Under the pieces are notes generated by a model. That model did no database searches and had not been told where the DNA came from. It worked only from the letters and a program-made list of their open reading frames with translations. Of a stretch of DNA of 64,000 bases, positions 30,878 through 47,312 are shown in pieces. A program made the translations under genes and the position numbers. Position 1 is the first letter of the stretch. Every line of letters begins with the position of its first letter. Where the stretch lies: assembly GCF_032051675.1 (NCBI RefSeq), contig NZ_CP116968.1:248001-312000 (forward strand), read 5' to 3'. This stretch comes from Candidatus Nitrospira neomarina. GTDB taxonomy: Bacteria > Nitrospirota > Nitrospiria > Nitrospirales > UBA8639.

Positions 30878-30932
30878 ATAATGTACCCATCAATGCGCCT
30901 CAGTTATAGTGTCCAAGACGAATTTCTACAGA

Positions 30933-32237
30933 ATGGCGAAATCTTCTAAACAGTTTCTTCACTGGTCGATCAGCCGGGTGGTGCCGGTTGACCGGGATGA
31001 ACTCCCTGCGCTCCTCTGGTCGTTTGTCTATTTTTTTTGTGTGCTGGCGGCCTACTACATTCTGCGACCGGTTCGCGATGAAATGGGAGTGCTCTCGGGG
31101 GCTCATAATCTCCCGTGGTTGTTCTCAATGGTGTTCATCACCATGCTAGCCGTGATCCCGATGTTTGGATGGGTCGCGGGGCAACTTCCGATTCGTCGAT
31201 TATTGCCAACGGTCTATGTGTTTTTCATCCTGAATCTTTTGGCATTTTTTGTGGCTTTGCAAAGTGGAGTCGGGTTGCAAGCCTTTGGGCCCATCTTTTT
31301 TGTATGGTTGAGTGTGTTTAATTTATTCGTCGTGTCGGTGTTTTGGAGTTTTATGGCCGATGTGTTTTCCACTGATGCGGCTCGGCGACTCTTTGGTTGT
31401 ATTTCCGCAGGAGGCAGTCTTGGCGCCATGACAGGGCCGTTTATCACCGCCATGGCGGTAAAAGGGGTCGGGGTTTCCGGGTTACTCTTGGTGTCAGCGA
31501 TCTTCTTATTGATCGCGGTGGGATGCATTATGGCGTTGTTAAAATGGTATCACGTCCATCACGGGATTGATCTGGGAAACCGACACCTTTCTTCCATCAG
31601 GAATCCTGAAGGCACTCCTCCCAGCTTATGGGTAGGAGTGGTATGCATTGTTCGCTCGCCCTATTTGAAAGGGATTGCCCTCTATCTCATGTGTTATTCC
31701 ATTCTGTCCACCTTCCTGTATTCGCAGCAAACCATATTAATTCCGCAAGTCATGCCGAGTTCGGAGGATCGCATGCAATTGTTTGCATCGGTGGATCTTG
31801 GGATCAATGTGTTCGCGTTCACGCTCCAGTTTTTCGCGACAGGCTGGCTGTTGACGCGGTTTGGCGTCGTGATCATGTTGGCTGTCATGCCCCTGGTATC
31901 ATTGATTGGATTTGGGGTGTTTGGTTTAGTGACCGTCCTGCCGGTCTTGATCGGATTTGGTGTCCTGCGGCGTGCGGGAGAATTTTCCATCACCAAGCCG
32001 ACGCGAGAAACCCTGTTTACCGTCGTTTCCCGTGAAGAAAAATATCAGGCGAAAAACGTGATTGATACGGTCGTTCATCGAGGTGCCGATATGGCGGGGA
32101 CCGGGATTGTCTCCGTCTTTCATACCTGGGGAATGACTTTGTCCCACATGGCATTTGCGGCTCTGCCCATTGCGGGTCTATGGTTTGCCACGGGTGTGTG
32201 GCTTGGGCGACGACACGAAGCGATCCGGCGACGATGA
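30933..32237 (+). CDS. major-facilitator-like transporter, Npt1/Npt2 nucleotide-transporter related
   Basis: Membrane protein of about 434 residues with some 12 hydrophobic helices. The segment AAYYILRPVRDEMG near the first helix is characteristic of the Npt1/Npt2 (ATP:ADP antiporter-like) family. Intracellular bacteria use these to take up nucleotides, but free-living bacteria also have relatives of unknown substrate. Further family-like segments are VFNLFVVSVFWSFMADVFS and RAGEFSITKPTRETLFTVV. ATG at 30933 is chosen; an in-frame GTG at 30909 lacks a ribosome site, as does the ATG, so the start is uncertain. It begins 55 bases after the hairpin repeat. Confidence 0.8.
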   Translation: MAKSSKQFLHWSISRVVPVDRDELPALLWSFVYFFCVLAAYYILRPVRDEMGVLSGAHNLPWLFSMVFITMLAVIPMFGWVAGQLPIRRLLPTVYVFFILNLLAFFVALQSGVGLQAFGPIFFVWLSVFNLFVVSVFWSFMADVFSTDAARRLFGCISAGGSLGAMTGPFITAMAVKGVGVSGLLLVSAIFLLIAVGCIMALLKWYHVHHGIDLGNRHLSSIRNPEGTPPSLWVGVVCIVRSPYLKGIALYLMCYSILSTFLYSQQTILIPQVMPSSEDRMQLFASVDLGINVFAFTLQFFATGWLLTRFGVVIMLAVMPLVSLIGFGVFGLVTVLPVLIGFGVLRRAGEFSITKPTRETLFTVVSREEKYQAKNVIDTVVHRGADMAGTGIVSVFHTWGMTLSHMAFAALPIAGLWFATGVWLGRRHEAIRRR

Positions 32238-36102: not shown

Positions 36103-36387
36103 TTATGGAGTGGGAGTTTTCATGTCTGGGTTTTCTGTAGAAACGGGAGGTTCAATGATTGTCCCTCTGAGTAGATCCGGAGGATCGGTTTTATAGCGCT
36201 GTTCGATGGTGTGAGTCACGCAGAATTGTAGCTGCCTGAGTTGCATTTCATTAAGAGATTCTGGATTTTCTGAAAATTCATGCGCTAATTTTTGGCACTT
36301 CGGCTCCATGTTTTCACCACCCTGGGCCAGAGCAAATACCGGGAAAAGAATTAGTCCGAAGAATGTTAAAAGGATTCCTGATTTCAT
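36103..36387 (-). CDS. small secreted hypothetical protein
   Basis: A 94-residue protein with a clear N-terminal signal peptide (MKSGILLTFFGLILFPVFAL, then AQ as a likely cleavage site) and AGGAGG six bases before the ATG at 36387. The mature part has two cysteines (PKCQKL and LQFCVTH), perhaps a disulfide, and a proline-rich tail. No family is recognised. A frame extending upstream adds residues without support. It lies just downstream of the tRNA-Leu gene on the same strand. Confidence 0.7.
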   Translation of the reverse strand: MKSGILLTFFGLILFPVFALAQGGENMEPKCQKLAHEFSENPESLNEMQLRQLQFCVTHTIEQRYKTDPPDLLRGTIIEPPVSTENPDMKTPTP

Positions 36388-36512
36388 ACTGTTCCTCCTA
36401 TATATAACGGAATTCTTTTGCAAATCTCATACTCTTGGGTTTGAACATATCAAGCAAGGTGTTGCAGAAGGATTGCTGTTAGGAAACCCGTACAAACGAA
36501 AAATATAAGAGA

Positions 36513-36599
36513 TGGTGCCGAAGGCGGGATTTGAACCCGCACACCCCGGAGGGCGCTAGACCCTGAATCTAGTGCGTCTGCCAGTTCCGCCACTTCGGC
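36513..36599 (-). tRNA. tRNA-Leu (anticodon CAG)
   Basis: A long-variable-arm tRNA on the minus strand. The acceptor stem pairs GCCGAAG with CTTCGGC. The D-loop region is GGCGGAACTGGCAGACGC. The anticodon loop TT-CAG-GG is held by a stem of the CTAGA type, a large variable arm follows, and the T arm is GCGGG-TTCAAAT-CCCGC. The discriminator is A, and the 3' CCA is encoded in the DNA (TGG at 36513-36515 on the plus strand). It decodes CUG. A good promoter lies just upstream. Confidence 0.97.
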
Positions 36600-36734: not shown

Positions 36735-38246
36735 CTATCCCACGCTGGTAGGTTGGGGTGAAGGACCCAGAAGGGTTTCCAGAAAGGCTTGTGGCCAGCG
36801 GCCAGGAGAAGATTTCGTCCCTGGTTCTCCAGGTAGCAGGTCGGAGGTGTCACCACTGAGAATGATTCGCTCACGAATGGTACCAGTGGCAGCAAGCAAA
36901 AGAGATGCAGGGATGCGTGGGGCATCATCAATAACCAGTAAATCAAACGGGACTTTTCGGAAGAGCGGGTCGGTAAGGATGCGGCCCGGGGTGCAGGTCA
37001 TGATACGTTTGTTTTGTGCGAAGGCTTGGCGGTTGGTGCCTTCTCCAGCGGCCAGCATTTCCCGAATTTTTTTAGTGCCGCCCAATCGTTTGATTTCTTC
37101 TTTTAGTTCATCGTATTCCGGTCGCAGATTTTTAGGAACGGTCGCTTCGGGGATTAATTCTTTAATTCGCGTTTGGGCTATTTCGACTTCTTTCATGAGT
37201 CCAAGGATTTTGCCTTGGTAAATTTCCCGGTATTCGGCCAGAGTCTCGATATTCTTGCCCGCCACCTGCATACTCATCCGTGTCCAAATGGGAAGTGCCT
37301 CATAGTCCCGGACAGTTTTATCGATATTTTTGACTTTCCCTTGCCAGTCACTGAGCTGTGTGAGTAATCGCCATTCCAACAATTTTACTTCGTTCAGATC
37401 TTTTTGCTTGTCGCGTTTGTAGGCCAGAATTGGAGTTAGTTCCCTGAACCGGTCATATTTTTTTCGTAAGGAGACTTTTTTGGCGTTGGCCTTGGCAAAA
37501 AAATGGGACATCTGTGCTTCAAAGCCAAAGTCCTGGAGAAGCATCCCTCCCGCATCTTTTACTAAAGGTAGTTCATACCGGCAGAGCAAACTTCGGTAGG
37601 GCAAGGCCGCCATTTTTAAGGCGTGTGCAACCGCACCAGTTAATTCATCAACTGTGTGATGATCCGGAGCCACCAAGAGAATTCGTTTATTTTTCCGAAC
37701 CTGATCGACGATTAACGTTGTCAACTTTGTCCAGCGTGTTTGCCGTGTGTCTCCCCAGATAGTCGTCAGCACTGTAGTCGGAATGCTGTCTCTTGCTGCC
37801 GTTTGATGGGAGAGCGGTTCAGGGTCCAGCCAGGGCACCAATCGTTCGGCAGGCCCAAGTGTAAAGGAATCAGGTTTGCTGGCCATGTCGGCCAACCGTG
37901 TGGCCCCGGTTTCGAGGAAACCCGATGTGTCGGGAATGAGGGTACACCGATTGAGGGTATGGCCGACGTGATCAAATGTTTGGAGTATGAGCGATCCATT
38001 TTGCCACCCCAGAAGATAGCCTTCGGTCGGTTCCATATCGTTACCCGGCAACAACGTCACCGGGATGTCGGGTAGGAATGTACTTCCAGGGGGAACATCA
38101 CAACTATAGAGGTGAAGGGAGCCTACCGTGCGGAGGTGTCGGGCTTGGGCAATCTCCAACGGTGCGTCTAATCCACGGCTCATGGCGACTTCCCGTTCGC
38201 TGTTGAGTTGGACTGTGACTAAATTGAGAAGATCGTAAAGTTTCAT
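36735..38246 (-). CDS. helicase-like protein with degenerate P-loop
   Basis: A 503-residue soluble protein resembling the first RecA domain of superfamily-1 helicases of the Upf1/DNA2 type. RILLVAPDHHTVDELTGAVA (about 188-207) fits motif Ia; LLVIDDAPRIPASLLLAA (about 437-454) fits motif II with DD; RIILSGDTSDLLP fits motif III (LxGDxxQL). The place of the Walker A loop reads TTIWGDTRQTRWTK (about 161-174), without the GxGKT. A long charged helical region (about 230-400) separates the parts, and there is no second RecA domain. ATP binding is therefore doubtful. The start ATG at 38246 has a weak upstream site and lies five bases after the stop of the upstream membrane-anchored protein. Confidence 0.65.
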   Translation of the reverse strand: MKLYDLLNLVTVQLNSEREVAMSRGLDAPLEIAQARHLRTVGSLHLYSCDVPPGSTFLPDIPVTLLPGNDMEPTEGYLLGWQNGSLILQTFDHVGHTLNRCTLIPDTSGFLETGATRLADMASKPDSFTLGPAERLVPWLDPEPLSHQTAARDSIPTTVLTTIWGDTRQTRWTKLTTLIVDQVRKNKRILLVAPDHHTVDELTGAVAHALKMAALPYRSLLCRYELPLVKDAGGMLLQDFGFEAQMSHFFAKANAKKVSLRKKYDRFRELTPILAYKRDKQKDLNEVKLLEWRLLTQLSDWQGKVKNIDKTVRDYEALPIWTRMSMQVAGKNIETLAEYREIYQGKILGLMKEVEIAQTRIKELIPEATVPKNLRPEYDELKEEIKRLGGTKKIREMLAAGEGTNRQAFAQNKRIMTCTPGRILTDPLFRKVPFDLLVIDDAPRIPASLLLAATGTIRERIILSGDTSDLLPGEPGTKSSPGRWPQAFLETLLGPSPQPTSVG

Positions 38247-38251
38247 GAAAA

Positions 38252-38764
38252 TTATTGATTGAGTGCTGACAGTTCCAGGAGTTCCTTGATACAGAGGGCG
38301 AGACATCCCAACCCTCCGGTAAGTGGAGTTCGATCAGCCTCACACCCTCGATTGTGTGCACATTCAAACAGGGCGGGTAGCTTGGGATCAAGAGGGAGAG
38401 GCTCAAGTAAATAGAGGATGAGCGCCCCGGAGGTATCGGTCGAGAGGACGGCGACCCGTTGTCGGTGATCATCCTCAAAAATTACCGCTTGTGGGCTCGG
38501 AGCGACAAATGGGCGGGCGACAGAGAGTCCTGTGAGTGGAATGGTTTGGACAATGAGTGAGTCAGGTGGGGTGAGCGGCCGATTGGAAAAGCGAAGGTTG
38601 AGATCCGAGAATGGTTGGAGTGCGAGTCCTTCTTTGTCCTTCATTCCTTCTTCGGCAATGGTTAATGGAGGAAAGACTAAAAGACCAAGGGCAAATAGGG
38701 TGAGAAGGAGAAGGTTGAAAAGTATGTTGGTTCGAAGCTGACGTGGGTTAAGGTGGTTCATCAT
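38252..38764 (-). CDS. hypothetical membrane-anchored protein
   Basis: About 170 residues: a basic N-terminus, one hydrophobic helix (about 15-36) that may be a signal anchor or uncleaved signal, and a soluble domain with four cysteines near the end (ALFECAHNRGCEA and GCLALCIKELLEL) plus two central beta-strand-like segments (VIFEDDHRQRVAVLSTD). No family is recognised. Two adjacent ATGs (38764 and 38761) could start it. The downstream helicase-like gene begins five bases after its stop, so the two are very probably one transcript; they would nevertheless seem to act in different compartments. Confidence 0.6.
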   Translation of the reverse strand: MMNHLNPRQLRTNILFNLLLLTLFALGLLVFPPLTIAEEGMKDKEGLALQPFSDLNLRFSNRPLTPPDSLIVQTIPLTGLSVARPFVAPSPQAVIFEDDHRQRVAVLSTDTSGALILYLLEPLPLDPKLPALFECAHNRGCEADRTPLTGGLGCLALCIKELLELSALNQ

Positions 38765-39100: not shown

Positions 39101-39610
39101 ATGAAGGTTATTTTGCAGGAAAATGTAGAAGGTTTAGGGTATTTGGGTGATGTGTTGACGGTGGCCAAAGGGTATGCACGGAATTATTTGCTCCCGAGGA
39201 AAAAAGCGGTCGTAGCTGAAGAGCGACAGGTCAAATTGTTGCAGCATATCAAGCGGCAGATCGACCAAAAGGCCAAAAAAGAATTGGAGTCTTTAGGCGA
39301 GTCGGGGAAGAATCTTTCAAAAATCTCCCTGACATTTGAAGTGCAGACCGGAAAGGATGACAAGCTGTTCGGGTCTGTGACATCCAAAGATGTGGCCGAA
39401 CGATTGGCTGCTCAAGGCGTTGAGGTGGACCGAAGAAAAATTCACTTGCCACAGCCTCTCAAGGAGTTGGGGACCTTTTCGGTTGCCATTAAGCTTCATC
39501 GGGATGTGGTTCCCAAGATTAATGTGACCCTGGTGAAGAAAGCTGCAGAAGAGGCTACCCCTGAAGGGGGATCAGAGAAAGATCAGGCCGATGAAGCGGT
39601 CGACGAGTAA
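39101..39610 (+). CDS. rplI: 50S ribosomal protein L9
   Basis: Large-subunit ribosomal protein that binds 23S rRNA at the base of the L1 stalk and affects reading-frame maintenance. The N-domain starts MKVILQENVEGLGYLGDV with the conserved GYARNYLLPRKKAV helix entry. A long connecting helix and the C-domain (about 75-150, with TSKDVAERL) follow. At 169 residues it is about 20 longer than usual because of an acidic tail rich in Glu/Asp. An AAGGAG site lies ten bases before the ATG. The usual partners rpsF, ssb and rpsR are not upstream; glyA follows after three bases. Confidence 0.97.
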   Translation: MKVILQENVEGLGYLGDVLTVAKGYARNYLLPRKKAVVAEERQVKLLQHIKRQIDQKAKKELESLGESGKNLSKISLTFEVQTGKDDKLFGSVTSKDVAERLAAQGVEVDRRKIHLPQPLKELGTFSVAIKLHRDVVPKINVTLVKKAAEEATPEGGSEKDQADEAVDE

Positions 39611-41512: not shown

Positions 41513-42649
41513 ATGCCATCCCCCAAGCCCTCCTCCCGTTCCCCACGCATCACCAAACGTAGTCCACGGCGACCAAAGGCAAAAGTGACCTCCAGCCGGG
41601 TGGCGATTATTGGTGGGGGCCATGGTGGTACTGCACTCATGGAGATTTTTGCGGAGGATCCCTTGGTTACCGTGGTGGGGTTGAGTGAAATCCGTCCGCA
41701 TACCATGGGCGTTCGTCTCGCTAAAAAAATCGGGATTCCTGTCCTTCGCCGCTATCAAGATTTGCTCAAGATCAAAGACGTGGATCTGGTGATTGACGTA
41801 ACGGGCGATCCCGAAGTGGAGAAGACCCTGCTTGAGTCGCATGCCCCACACTTGGCGTTGGTGGGAGGCGCAAGCGCCAAGTTTATGTGGCAACTGATTG
41901 AAGCCCGGATCCGGGCCTCTGCCGAAATTGAAAATACCCTCACCCGGTATCAATCGCTGTTTCGTTTGTATGTCAAAGAGGAAGCCGAAGGAGCGGTGGA
42001 TGAGGAACGGACGCGCATTGCCTGTGAGATCCATGATGGTCTGGTGCAAACCCTGGTGGGAGTGAGCCTGAAGATGGAGCGTGTCCGTGAATTGGTGGCA
42101 GAGGATCCCCCCAAATGTTTGACGATGCTCAATCAGACGACCGTGCAATTGAAGCATGCCATTCAGGAGGCCAGGGAGGTGGTTTATAATCTTCGCCCGG
42201 GTCAATATGATCATTTAGCCTTTATTCCCGCGTTGTCAAATTATCTGAAGGCCTATGAAAGGGAGCACCGGATACGGACTGAGTTTGATGGGAGTGGGGA
42301 TGAATCCCAACTTGATCCGAAAGCGAAAGTCTTTGTTTTTCGCATGGTCCAGGAAGCATTAAGCAATGTGGCCAAACATGCCGGAGCGACCAAGGTGATT
42401 GTAAAAGTCGCGCTCAAGAAAGATGTCTTGAAAGCCACCGTTTCTGATAATGGCCAGGGCTTTGACGTCAAGGCAGAGGGGCAGAATCCTGAAAAATGGG
42501 ATCATTTCGGAGTAAGAAGTATGACGGAACGGGCGAGAATGTTAGGTGGAAACGTGCAGTGGGTGTCGAAACCCGGCACCGGCACGAAAGTTGAAATTTT
42601 CATTCCTCTGGTATTAAAGGAAAAGGTGCCTTATGCCCAAAACGACTAA
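41513..42649 (+). CDS. histidine kinase fused to an N-terminal NAD-binding Rossmann domain
   Basis: A 378-residue sensor kinase without membrane segments. Residues about 27-125 form a Rossmann-like domain with GGGHGG (34-39) and DLVIDVTGDPE (91-101), as in NAD(P)-binding proteins. A HisKA_3-type dimerisation helix follows with EERTRIACEIHDGLVQTL (phosphorylated His about 174), then an HATPase with FVFRMVQEALSNVAKHAG and DNGQGFDV. This is the NarL/DegS class of kinase. The partner response regulator overlaps by 17 bases. The sensor is probably cytoplasmic and might read the NAD(H) or a nucleotide-linked metabolite; that is inference. An AGTGG site lies a few bases before the ATG. Confidence 0.9.
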   Translation: MPSPKPSSRSPRITKRSPRRPKAKVTSSRVAIIGGGHGGTALMEIFAEDPLVTVVGLSEIRPHTMGVRLAKKIGIPVLRRYQDLLKIKDVDLVIDVTGDPEVEKTLLESHAPHLALVGGASAKFMWQLIEARIRASAEIENTLTRYQSLFRLYVKEEAEGAVDEERTRIACEIHDGLVQTLVGVSLKMERVRELVAEDPPKCLTMLNQTTVQLKHAIQEAREVVYNLRPGQYDHLAFIPALSNYLKAYEREHRIRTEFDGSGDESQLDPKAKVFVFRMVQEALSNVAKHAGATKVIVKVALKKDVLKATVSDNGQGFDVKAEGQNPEKWDHFGVRSMTERARMLGGNVQWVSKPGTGTKVEIFIPLVLKEKVPYAQND

Positions 42650-44060: not shown

Positions 44061-47000
44061 ATGTTCACGCTTGTCAGCGGCCCATTCTCTCCTTACCTCG
44101 AATCAGCTCTTGTTGAAACGGTCCAGCAGATCAAAGCGGCCGATTCCCGTGCGCCGCTGGCCATTCTGGTGCCTTCGGATTCATTGCGAAGGAGACTCCA
44201 GTGGTTATTATGCGCCGAGCATTCCTGTGCGCTCTTCGATCTCCATGTTCTGACGTTCCATCAGTTCGCTCTCCATCTTCATGCCGAGCAAGCAGCATTG
44301 GGTTCACTGGAAACGAAGGTGTCTTCGGTCGAACTTGTCGGCGACTTTTTCTATGAATATCTTCTAGCCGTAATTTTTGAAAAGAGTGGGCAAACTGTCG
44401 GACCCTTTGCCGATCTTCAAAGTTCATCAGGTCTCAGGCAGGCCGTGTGGCGGAGCATTCGGGATTTGCTTGAAGCGCAAGTTGAGCCACGCCTGGCTCT
44501 CCGTGCGGTGGAAGAGGGGCTGTTCGATGAGATTGCAGTCACTCGCCTAGCGGGCTTACTGAAACTTCAGGAGGCCATCGTGAATGTGAGCCGACAACTA
44601 GGGGTGGGATTGCCTGAAGATTTGGCCAATTCCGTGATTCCCTGGGTTGGGGCGTCACCGTTTGTTGCCAAATTCCCGACGATCATCTATTACGGTTTTT
44701 ACGACATCACGCAAGTTCAGCTTTCGCTGTTAGAGGAAGTGGCTCGTACGAATTCCGTGAAGGTGTTCTTTCCCCTGACTGATCAACCTGCCTATCAATT
44801 TGCGCAACGATTTCTCGATCGACATTTATTAAAAGCCGGAGTGGTGTATCAACCTCATCAGGTTGGGCACAAAGCGTTGGAATTAGGGAATCCGACGGTA
44901 TCATCCCCCTCCGTGCAGGTGGTAAACGTGATCGGGGGTCAAGGGGAGCTGGTTTTTACCTGCAAAGCCATTCTGCATGCGGTGGAAACGACAGGGCACA
45001 CGTTTCATGAGATTGGGGTGGTGGCCAGAACTCTCGAGCCATATGGGCTCTTTCTGCGGCGGGTGTTTGCGGAGCATCGAATTCCCTTTTGCACCACAGC
45101 GACCTTGCCTCTGTTGGAAGAACCGTACGCTAAGCTTTGGTGGCAGCTTGCCGGCTTGAGGGAAGAGCGGTACCCCTGGCAGGCACTGCTGAATGTCGTG
45201 ACCTCTCCTTATTATCGAAACCCGTCGGTCAACGGATGTTCCACTCATGCACAAAAGCCAATCTGGAGCCAGGCCATTCGTCATTGGCGTCTTATGCAAG
45301 GTCGGGATGATTGGGAACGTCTTGCAGCGGTGGCGAAAGACCCGGAAGCAATTGCTGCCTGGCAGCAGAAGATCGGAATGCCTCTGGAAGAGGCCTCTTT
45401 CGCTATACAAGAGTGCGCGGACGTCGTGGGCCGACTGGTGGCCGATTGTCAGGCTCTTCCGGAATCAGGCTCGATTGGTGAGCTAACCCTCGCCTTTGAA
45501 GCACTCGTGAATACGCATCTTTCCTTGCTTCAAGAAGAGACATCTTCTCACATGGAAGAGCGGGATCAGGCGCATCGGGCAAGTCTTGCACAAGCCTTTG
45601 AACAGGTCATGACGCAGTTAAAGCAACTGGATCGGGTCGGTTCTCAAGTAACCTGGGGTGCATGGGTGGAGGTGTGTCGAGGAGCCCTGGAAGGAACAAG
45701 AATGCCTATTCCTGGGCAAAGCCCCTTAGGCGTGCAGGTATTCGATGCTATGGCGGCGCGAGGCCAATCCTTTAAAACCGTGTTTATTCTTGGAATGAAT
45801 GATCAGGTTTTTCCACGAGTGGTTCGGGAGGATGCATTTTTACGTGACGGGGATCGAAGGGTGTTGGCGGAAAGCCTTGGATATAAAATTGATGAAAAAA
45901 TGCATGGGTTTGATGAAGAGGCTTTGTTGTTTGCGTTGCTTCGGCACTCAGCCAGTGACCGGGTGTATCTCGTCTATCAACGTGCCGATCACAAGGGGCG
46001 TCCGCTGTTGCCGTCTCCTCTCCTAACGGAATACGTGAGAGATGTCCCGGGCTGTTCTGAAGAGGTGATGAGTGTGCCATTGCGTGTGGCTGAGCGGGTG
46101 AGGCTCCCATACTTTTCCCCTGGTGAAGAGACCGGACAGGAAACGCGCCTGCGGTATCTGCTTCAGGGGCGGGCGATCCAAACAGCTTCTTTGGAGCCAT
46201 CGTTCTGGTGGATATTGTTTCGCCATGGATTCAGGTCCGTGGCTGCTCTTGAAAAAACGTCCACAGGGGCAGGATCGCATGATGGAATGATGGCCGTCGA
46301 AGGGGCCCATTGGCAGGAGCTCTTGTCCCGGGGGTTGTCACCGACAGCGTTGGAACGCTATGCCCAATGTCCTTGCCGGTATTGGATGGAACATGCCCTG
46401 CATACACGGAATGTTCGAGAGCCTATTTCGCGGGAAATGCCAAGCCGGGTTTGGGGAGAGTTGGGGCATACCATTCTTCGACACGTCTATCGCTATCTCA
46501 TCGATCATCAATGGCCGGTCTGTCCAATAGAGTCCGTTTATCTCTCTTCCTTGATTGCTTCGACCATTGATCAGGTATGCGATACATATGCGACGCACTA
46601 TGGCAAAGGGTATGTGGTCCTGTGGGAAAGAATGAAAACGCAATTAGGTGCCGTGGTAGTTGCGATGATCGAGCATGATCAACAGGAGTACGTCGATCAG
46701 GCTATGGTGCCGGTGGATTGTGAGATAGGGGCCGAGGGAGAAATTGGAAGCGGGGTGCCGGGAGACTCGACCTTGCTGAAGATTCATGGACGAATGGATC
46801 GCGTGGACCGGCAGTCGGATGGCCTAAGGACTCGTATTGTGGATTATAAATTTTCTGGTGGTTTGGCGACTCGAACAGACCACCCCGATCTCGTCAATGA
46901 AGCCCTGCGTGGTCGACGGTTACAACCTCCTTTATATTCACTGATGTCTTCCTTGAGCCTGGCCGGCCATTCCGGAGAACATTCCAAAGAAATGATGTCG

Positions 47001-47312
47001 CCACATCCTGCGATGCATTCCGTGGAATTCCGGTTTATCCGTCCATTGCATCCTGCTCCTCTCACCTTCTCATCGTTTCCCAGTTCGATCTGGGCAACGC
47101 AAACGGGTGACCAATTATTGCGGACCATTCGTCGTTGGATCGAAGGCATCCGCACAGGGCAGTTCTTTATTCTACCTGGTTCCTATTGTCGTGACTGTGC
47201 GTGGTCGGTGGCCTGTCGGTTTCAGCATCATCCCTCGTGGGTGAGGGCGTATGGAATTCCCTTGGCGAAGGAATTTCGGCAAGGGCGAAAGCAACGGGCC
47301 ACCCATGAGTAA
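44061..47312 (+). CDS. addB: AddB-like subunit of a recombination helicase-nuclease
   Basis: A 1083-residue protein of the AddB/RexB group, which forms with AddA a helicase-nuclease that processes double-strand breaks for RecA. The C-terminal PD-(D/E)XK nuclease part is marked by SPTALERYAQCPCRYWMEHAL and IVDYKFSGG. The iron-sulfur cluster cysteines are present: CPCRYW plus the CxxCx5C string in YCRDCAWSVACRF near the end. The N-terminus has GPFSPYLESA in place of a P-loop, so it would not bind ATP by a Walker motif. Its stop overlaps the start of the AddA gene by eight bases, giving coupled synthesis. Alternative name: PD-(D/E)XK nuclease family protein. Confidence 0.88.
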   Translation: MFTLVSGPFSPYLESALVETVQQIKAADSRAPLAILVPSDSLRRRLQWLLCAEHSCALFDLHVLTFHQFALHLHAEQAALGSLETKVSSVELVGDFFYEYLLAVIFEKSGQTVGPFADLQSSSGLRQAVWRSIRDLLEAQVEPRLALRAVEEGLFDEIAVTRLAGLLKLQEAIVNVSRQLGVGLPEDLANSVIPWVGASPFVAKFPTIIYYGFYDITQVQLSLLEEVARTNSVKVFFPLTDQPAYQFAQRFLDRHLLKAGVVYQPHQVGHKALELGNPTVSSPSVQVVNVIGGQGELVFTCKAILHAVETTGHTFHEIGVVARTLEPYGLFLRRVFAEHRIPFCTTATLPLLEEPYAKLWWQLAGLREERYPWQALLNVVTSPYYRNPSVNGCSTHAQKPIWSQAIRHWRLMQGRDDWERLAAVAKDPEAIAAWQQKIGMPLEEASFAIQECADVVGRLVADCQALPESGSIGELTLAFEALVNTHLSLLQEETSSHMEERDQAHRASLAQAFEQVMTQLKQLDRVGSQVTWGAWVEVCRGALEGTRMPIPGQSPLGVQVFDAMAARGQSFKTVFILGMNDQVFPRVVREDAFLRDGDRRVLAESLGYKIDEKMHGFDEEALLFALLRHSASDRVYLVYQRADHKGRPLLPSPLLTEYVRDVPGCSEEVMSVPLRVAERVRLPYFSPGEETGQETRLRYLLQGRAIQTASLEPSFWWILFRHGFRSVAALEKTSTGAGSHDGMMAVEGAHWQELLSRGLSPTALERYAQCPCRYWMEHALHTRNVREPISREMPSRVWGELGHTILRHVYRYLIDHQWPVCPIESVYLSSLIASTIDQVCDTYATHYGKGYVVLWERMKTQLGAVVVAMIEHDQQEYVDQAMVPVDCEIGAEGEIGSGVPGDSTLLKIHGRMDRVDRQSDGLRTRIVDYKFSGGLATRTDHPDLVNEALRGRRLQPPLYSLMSSLSLAGHSGEHSKEMMSPHPAMHSVEFRFIRPLHPAPLTFSSFPSSIWATQTGDQLLRTIRRWIEGIRTGQFFILPGSYCRDCAWSVACRFQHHPSWVRAYGIPLAKEFRQGRKQRATHE

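Follow-up and report, generated by a model that had tools for sequence, protein, structure and literature searches.

The gene examined here, which we name psH, encodes half of a UPF1-type helicase as a short protein of its own. This protein is strongly conserved and belongs to the core set of the entire order Nitrospirales, nitrifying bacteria that include major nitrite oxidisers. It is probably an ex-motor serving, with an important function, as a static nucleic-acid-binding or scaffold protein, and it raises the question of what a RecA1-1B-1C module does without ATP and why an arginine is fixed at the place of the Walker lysine. The gene lies in the window, i.e. the whole stretch of 64,000 nucleotides that was analysed, taken from the closed 4.80-Mb genome of Candidatus Nitrospira neomarina. 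The features on which the argument is built are the following (numbering of the window):

36735..38246, minus strand: psH, helicase-like protein of the SF1B type lacking P-loop and RecA2, 503 aa
37806..38246, minus strand: psH residues 1-147, N-terminal (stalk) helix, subdomain 1B beta-barrel and second stalk helix with the invariant R117
37722..37757, minus strand: psH residues 164-175, WGDTRQTRWTKL, the former Walker A, aligning without gaps to WGPPGTGKTTTL
37734-37736, minus strand: codon of psH R171, at the Walker lysine position
37647..37691, minus strand: psH residues 186-200, NKRILLVAPDHHTVD, the motif Ia region, largely retained
37032..37544, minus strand: psH residues 235-405, long helical insert in place of subdomain 1C (prong)
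36837..37010, minus strand: psH residues 413-470, motif Ic-like T419, F-D435, degenerate motif II (IDDAP) and motif III-like SGD
38252..38764, minus strand: partner gene directly upstream of psH; its product (170 aa) begins like a signal peptide and carries four conserved cysteines
39101..39610, plus strand: rplI, divergent neighbour of psH in most loci, followed by glyA and nrdR

Both reading frames were found on the minus strand where an earlier note on this DNA had placed them, with the ATG of psH five bases past the stop codon of the partner gene. An alternative, longer psH frame from the ATG at 38306 would overlap the partner gene; relatives align from the 38246 start. From this start the protein runs through stalk helix, 1B barrel, second stalk helix, RecA1, long helical insert and motifs II and III, with no visible export signal.

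psH is related to the SF1B UPF1-like helicases. The helicase similarity suspected by the earlier note was recovered by profile methods: Pfam AAA_11 matched the window psH at 3.6e-5, just short of the curated cut-off, and all 22 orthologs scanned (best 3.4e-7), and a broader psH family profile retrieved DNA2 (8.9e-6) and SMUBP-2/IGHMBP2 (0.024) among solved structures; the libraries searched gave no above-threshold family name. Structure prediction, likewise proposed at the outset, agreed with the profiles. Foldseek searches with the AlphaFold model of psH (22 input sequences, pLDDT 81.5, pTM 0.70) returned SETX, IGHMBP2, UPF1, DNA2 and spliceosomal entries with E-values of 6e-13 and up, and VIA-align filled the upper ranks of its list with UPF1-like SF1B helicases, with a Z of 22.1 against IGHMBP2 (rmsd 4.7, 303 aligned) and of up to 19.1 against UPF1. 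The model contains a RecA1 fold with the 1B stalk/barrel and a 1C helical insertion, the barrel being missing in family f2 (f1 to f4 are our working labels for families of Nitrospirales); psH is thereby modelled to fold like the RecA1, 1B and 1C parts of these helicases, whose stalk, barrel and prong have been described (PMC5452015).

The motor elements of this fold are lost or rewritten. At the Walker A position the window psH reads WGDTRQTRWTK, as originally quoted, and GxxxxGK[ST] occurs in none of 106 distinct orthologs, anywhere in the protein; relatives with an intact GxGKT, which the earlier note had regarded as a counter-argument, were thus not among them, intact P-loops being confined to longer paralogous helicases. 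The site is rewritten rather than deleted, as TIWGDTRQTRWTKL matches FLWGPPGTGKTTTL of intact helicases without a gap and the replacement segment stands in register with the WGPPGTGKT of intact relatives. Ten such intact helicases from Nitrospirales, between 666 and 1209 aa long and some of them truncated at contig ends, score 43 to 78 bits against the psH profile, and in 10/10 their P-loop lysine falls on R171; the alignment with SMUBP-2, read by eye as printed, gives the same register. This arginine is present in 106/106 psH orthologs, accompanied by an acidic residue (D/E) at position 166 in 91 and at position 167 in 94 of them, while W164, a residue of WGPPGTGKT-type P-loops, is retained in 103/106. 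The SF1 motifs Ia, II and III noticed earlier are indeed visible, as a largely kept motif Ia, in which the Asn of active helicases is mostly His, and as a degenerate motif II (IDDAP) and a motif III-like SGD in the window psH, motif II varying in relatives: position 440 is D in 80, E in 24 and A in one ortholog, i.e. acidic in 104/105, and position 441 is E in 54, D in 36, N in 13 and G in two. G465 is kept in 104 of 105.

Similarly, the second RecA domain is missing, as had been claimed: homology stops after motif III, beyond which intact helicases align no further, and no RecA2 remnant follows psH in the window. A split helicase, with its RecA2 encoded nearby or alone in the genome, was considered and rejected, there being no sign of it in the window or in the genome, whose sole AAA_12 match is a separate 1145-aa helicase. 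With Walker A and RecA2 gone and motif II degenerate, psH is presumably no motor, and the consistency of these losses in relatives bears out the term pseudo-helicase; together with the dN/dS values given below, the lost motifs predict a fold devoid of ATPase activity.

psH is under strong purifying selection and is a near-universal core gene of the Nitrospirales. It was present in 40/40 good genomes from a sample of 59 Nitrospirales relatives and in 96 of 295 phylum-wide genomes, all 96 belonging to the order; two Nitrospirales genomes of this larger set were listed without it, and one of these two absences coincides with a contig start. In G267 rplI lies 543 bases from the start of the contig, where psH would be expected; G002, G006 and G012 had neither psH nor rplI, and psH was not found in G005 and G294. 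These absences are apparent and not demonstrated losses. Outside the order, the profile search of the 295 phylum genomes added only full-length helicases. Other phyla were scanned by short peptide patterns only, which retrieved 24 loci, most of them labelled Nitrospirales, Nitrospira or Nitrospirota and two of them Nitrospinota, and tblastn gave no match to psH in either the phage or the plasmid collection. The reading frame is intact in essentially all orthologs, and pairwise dN/dS against six close relatives was 0.08-0.12 overall and 0-0.10 at residues 158-182, the P-loop site.

The genomic context of psH indicates no single pathway. A functional link to ribosomal genes through rplI was discarded, given that psH sits elsewhere in part of f3 and that all f4 loci examined are also devoid of this neighbour; the linkage is therefore ancestral at best. 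In f4 (genus g13; L072, L073 and L074) psH overlaps the start codon of ftsK, which is followed by lolA and a SPOR-domain gene, and a link to FtsK was also dismissed since it is confined to that genus, ftsK being far from psH in the other genomes checked. Several observations on the surroundings deserve mention in their own right. A tRNA-Leu (CAG) gene (36513-36599, minus strand) lies directly downstream of psH, and in the f3 loci L056, L058 and L060 psH is followed by a long integrase-looking ORF, so this tRNA gene may be an island integration site. A 106-aa ORF with a signal-peptide-like start (36103-36423, minus strand) is found downstream of psH in the nearest relatives only. Further away, 41513-42649 (plus strand) encodes a histidine kinase (HisKA_3, HATPase_c), followed by a response regulator and conserved beside nrdR in Nitrospirales, whose N-terminal ~130 residues resemble a Rossmann-type dinucleotide-binding domain replacing the usual sensor. 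The product of 30909-32237 (plus strand) is matched at 2.1e-13 by the family of TLC ATP/ADP transporters, whose best-known members occur in plastids and intracellular bacteria, and 44061-47312 encodes a separate PD-(D/E)XK protein, AddB-like in its context.

As to what such a protein does, we give about an even chance to psH being a static clamp or recognition module for nucleic acid, with RecA1 locked in one conformation by R171 and the acidic pair. On this view psH derives from a UPF1-like helicase of which the RecA1-1B-1C half remains; the capacity to bind ATP and the second motor domain would have gone before the families of the order diverged, and the remainder would have been kept as a core gene. 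Presumably unable to hydrolyse ATP or to translocate, psH may use Arg171 and the adjacent acidic pair (166/167) to fill the vacant nucleotide pocket and to hold RecA1 in one shape, leaving the stalk Arg, the motif Ia/Ic face and the enlarged insert to clamp single-stranded nucleic acid or a nucleoprotein partner statically, in a manner that would resemble how the inactivated domains of AddB and RecC hold a sequence in the old tracking groove.

The distribution of constraint bears on this proposal. In a 25-sequence alignment with identities down to 24%, R117, K187, R188, T419 and D435 are invariant, and 18 of the 32 invariant columns fall within the helical insert 235-405, which is among the most conserved parts of the protein (mean pairwise identity 0.60); the C-terminal tail (471-503) is freer of constraint. 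Judging from its position in the second stalk helix, R117 is the putative counterpart of the stalk Arg of UPF1, in which RNA is contacted by a stalk Arg and Thr and by the motif Ia Asn (PMC5452015). The long helical insert had been correctly recognised in the earlier note, although not as what it is: it sits at the position of the UPF1-like subdomain 1C and is therefore an enlarged standard element, not a foreign one. The RecA1 parts and the insert are basic in the window psH (pI above 9), and the 1B barrel, which is acidic, shows the lowest conservation of all parts (mean pairwise identity 0.36). In f2 psH the barrel is absent, a GTG start and VKAFDLLPALL (the counterpart of MKLYDLLNLV) leading directly into the second stalk helix; this clean loss, a natural deletion that joins the stalk helices, can be seen e.g. 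in L066:4403-5728 and L069. Since the barrel is variable and missing in f2, the shared function of psH rests on RecA1 and the insert, and part of the ancestral binding platform, acidic and deleted in this family, is therefore dispensable.

Two findings count against a clamp: without RecA2 half of the groove is missing, and the barrel, which touches RNA in UPF1, is here the acidic part that f2 has deleted. The conservation pattern in fact fits equally well with the strongest rival, a possible, if somewhat unlikely, scaffold for proteins alone that has the insert at its centre: a conserved cellular machine would dock onto the insert and RecA1 would be its structural support, with no nucleic acid bound. 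The density of invariant columns in the insert, the dispensability of the barrel in f2 and the overlap of psH with ftsK in f4 all speak for such a scaffold; however, it would render needless the kept R117, motif Ia and T419, which are nucleic-acid-facing elements in UPF1-like helicases, and the positive charge of RecA1 and the insert argues against it as well.

The upstream partner has to be weighed next. Its four cysteines, already counted in the earlier note (C135, C141, C154 and C158), are invariant or nearly so, and a domain of about 115 residues is confidently predicted, for which Pfam, PDB profile, Foldseek (best E 0.28) and VIA-align (best Z 4.0) searches gave no fold or family. The membrane anchor attributed to this protein has to be revised: the hydrophobic N terminus is followed in most relatives by AxA-like sites (e.g. 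SMAQ, TLAQ, ARAE) and looks more like a signal peptide than a permanent anchor, so that export is the more likely fate. Conservation of the pair is partial. In f1 and f2 the partner is immediately upstream of psH, separated in the loci examined by a few bases or joined to it by a 4-nt stop-start overlap (the case in many f1/f2 loci), a spacing that speaks for translational coupling; it is lacking throughout the sampled f3 and f4 genomes, where psH is nevertheless present. The coupling is therefore real but not needed for psH retention, and the general function does not lie in a membrane complex of the two proteins. The suggestion that the pseudo-helicase works at the membrane thus finds little support and is unsupported as a generalisation; moreover, with a signal-peptide-like partner and psH devoid of export signal the two proteins would reside in different compartments, the cysteine domain in the periplasm. 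A two-gene envelope system, in which the exported four-cysteine partner would cooperate with psH at the inner membrane or across it, draws on that coupling and, faced with the partner-free families and the separate compartments, is improbable.

It is very unlikely that psH is a nucleotide sensor in which binding no longer depends on a P-loop and R171 and the acidic pair have become the new ligands. The invariance of R171 and the near-invariance of the acid at 440 and of G465 would suit such a role, and the acidic residue at D440 makes some nucleotide or metal contact formally possible; yet the glycines that cradle the phosphates have gone, the second acidic position of motif II is occupied by E, D, N or G, and neither RecA2 nor a linker to it is present. 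Finally, that psH is a decayed enzyme heading for loss, the other option raised in the earlier note and one for which the missing motor motifs alone speak, is scarcely credible because dN/dS stays near 0.1, at the P-loop site as well, the frame is intact and the gene is conserved across the order.

Our preferred reading of psH as a static clamp is best judged against known systems. With the UPF1-like SF1B helicases (IGHMBP2/SMUBP-2, UPF1, Sen1/SETX, DNA2) psH shares RecA1, the stalk and 1B barrel, a helical 1C, motif Ia and the stretch from motif Ic through II to III; unlike them, it lacks Walker A and RecA2 and has a degenerate motif II and an enlarged insert. The closest sequence relatives found are three intact Nitrospirales helicases that were scanned further (L098, L099 and L157), which combine AAA_11, AAA_12 and PLD domains and score as Mokosh-type. 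They have the barrel-RecA1 order of psH and a WGPPGTGKT in register with its WGDTRQTRW, and L098 can be aligned along almost the entire psH profile (77.7 bits); in contrast to psH, they are 1092-1209 aa long and possess an intact P-loop, RecA2 and a PLD nuclease domain. Descent of psH from a Mokosh protein in particular is not established, because other SF1B helicases score only slightly lower. Mokosh type II unites helicase and PLD in one gene (PMC11672841), and assignment of psH to this type (MkoC) was rejected, as it has no P-loop and a PLD domain was found in 0/22 members scanned; its PADLOC matches to MkoA reflect the shared RecA1. It is nonetheless tempting to speculate, doubtful as the idea is, that a defence-type (anti-phage) SF1B helicase was domesticated early in the Nitrospirales, its pocket sealed by the Lys-to-Arg exchange and the acids, and turned into a housekeeping nucleic-acid clamp of the core genome, organised around the 1C insert, thereby founding a class of half-helicases that stand alone.

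Inactivated SF1 helicases are known, and a separate, order-wide SF1B half with an invariant Lys-to-Arg rewrite of the P-loop is absent from the named families in the libraries searched; literature searches for such a protein in Nitrospira or for 'pseudo-helicase' returned nothing relevant. Inactivated helicase domains are known mainly within larger machines such as AddB and RecC. There, inactivated SF1 domains bind Chi in the groove for single-stranded DNA (PMC4824097), and psH would be alike in being an SF1 helicase fold that has lost its catalytic motifs and been reused for binding, binding by psH being our proposal. The AddB and RecC domains belong to the UvrD-like (SF1A) type, have retained the two RecA domains and work inside a helicase-nuclease complex, whereas psH comes from the SF1B group, matches SF1B structures and is a separate short protein with a single RecA domain, for which reasons it was not classed as an AddB/RecC-type domain. 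The parallel is thus one of working principle and not of membership: like those domains, psH may hold its ligand where an active helicase would track along it.
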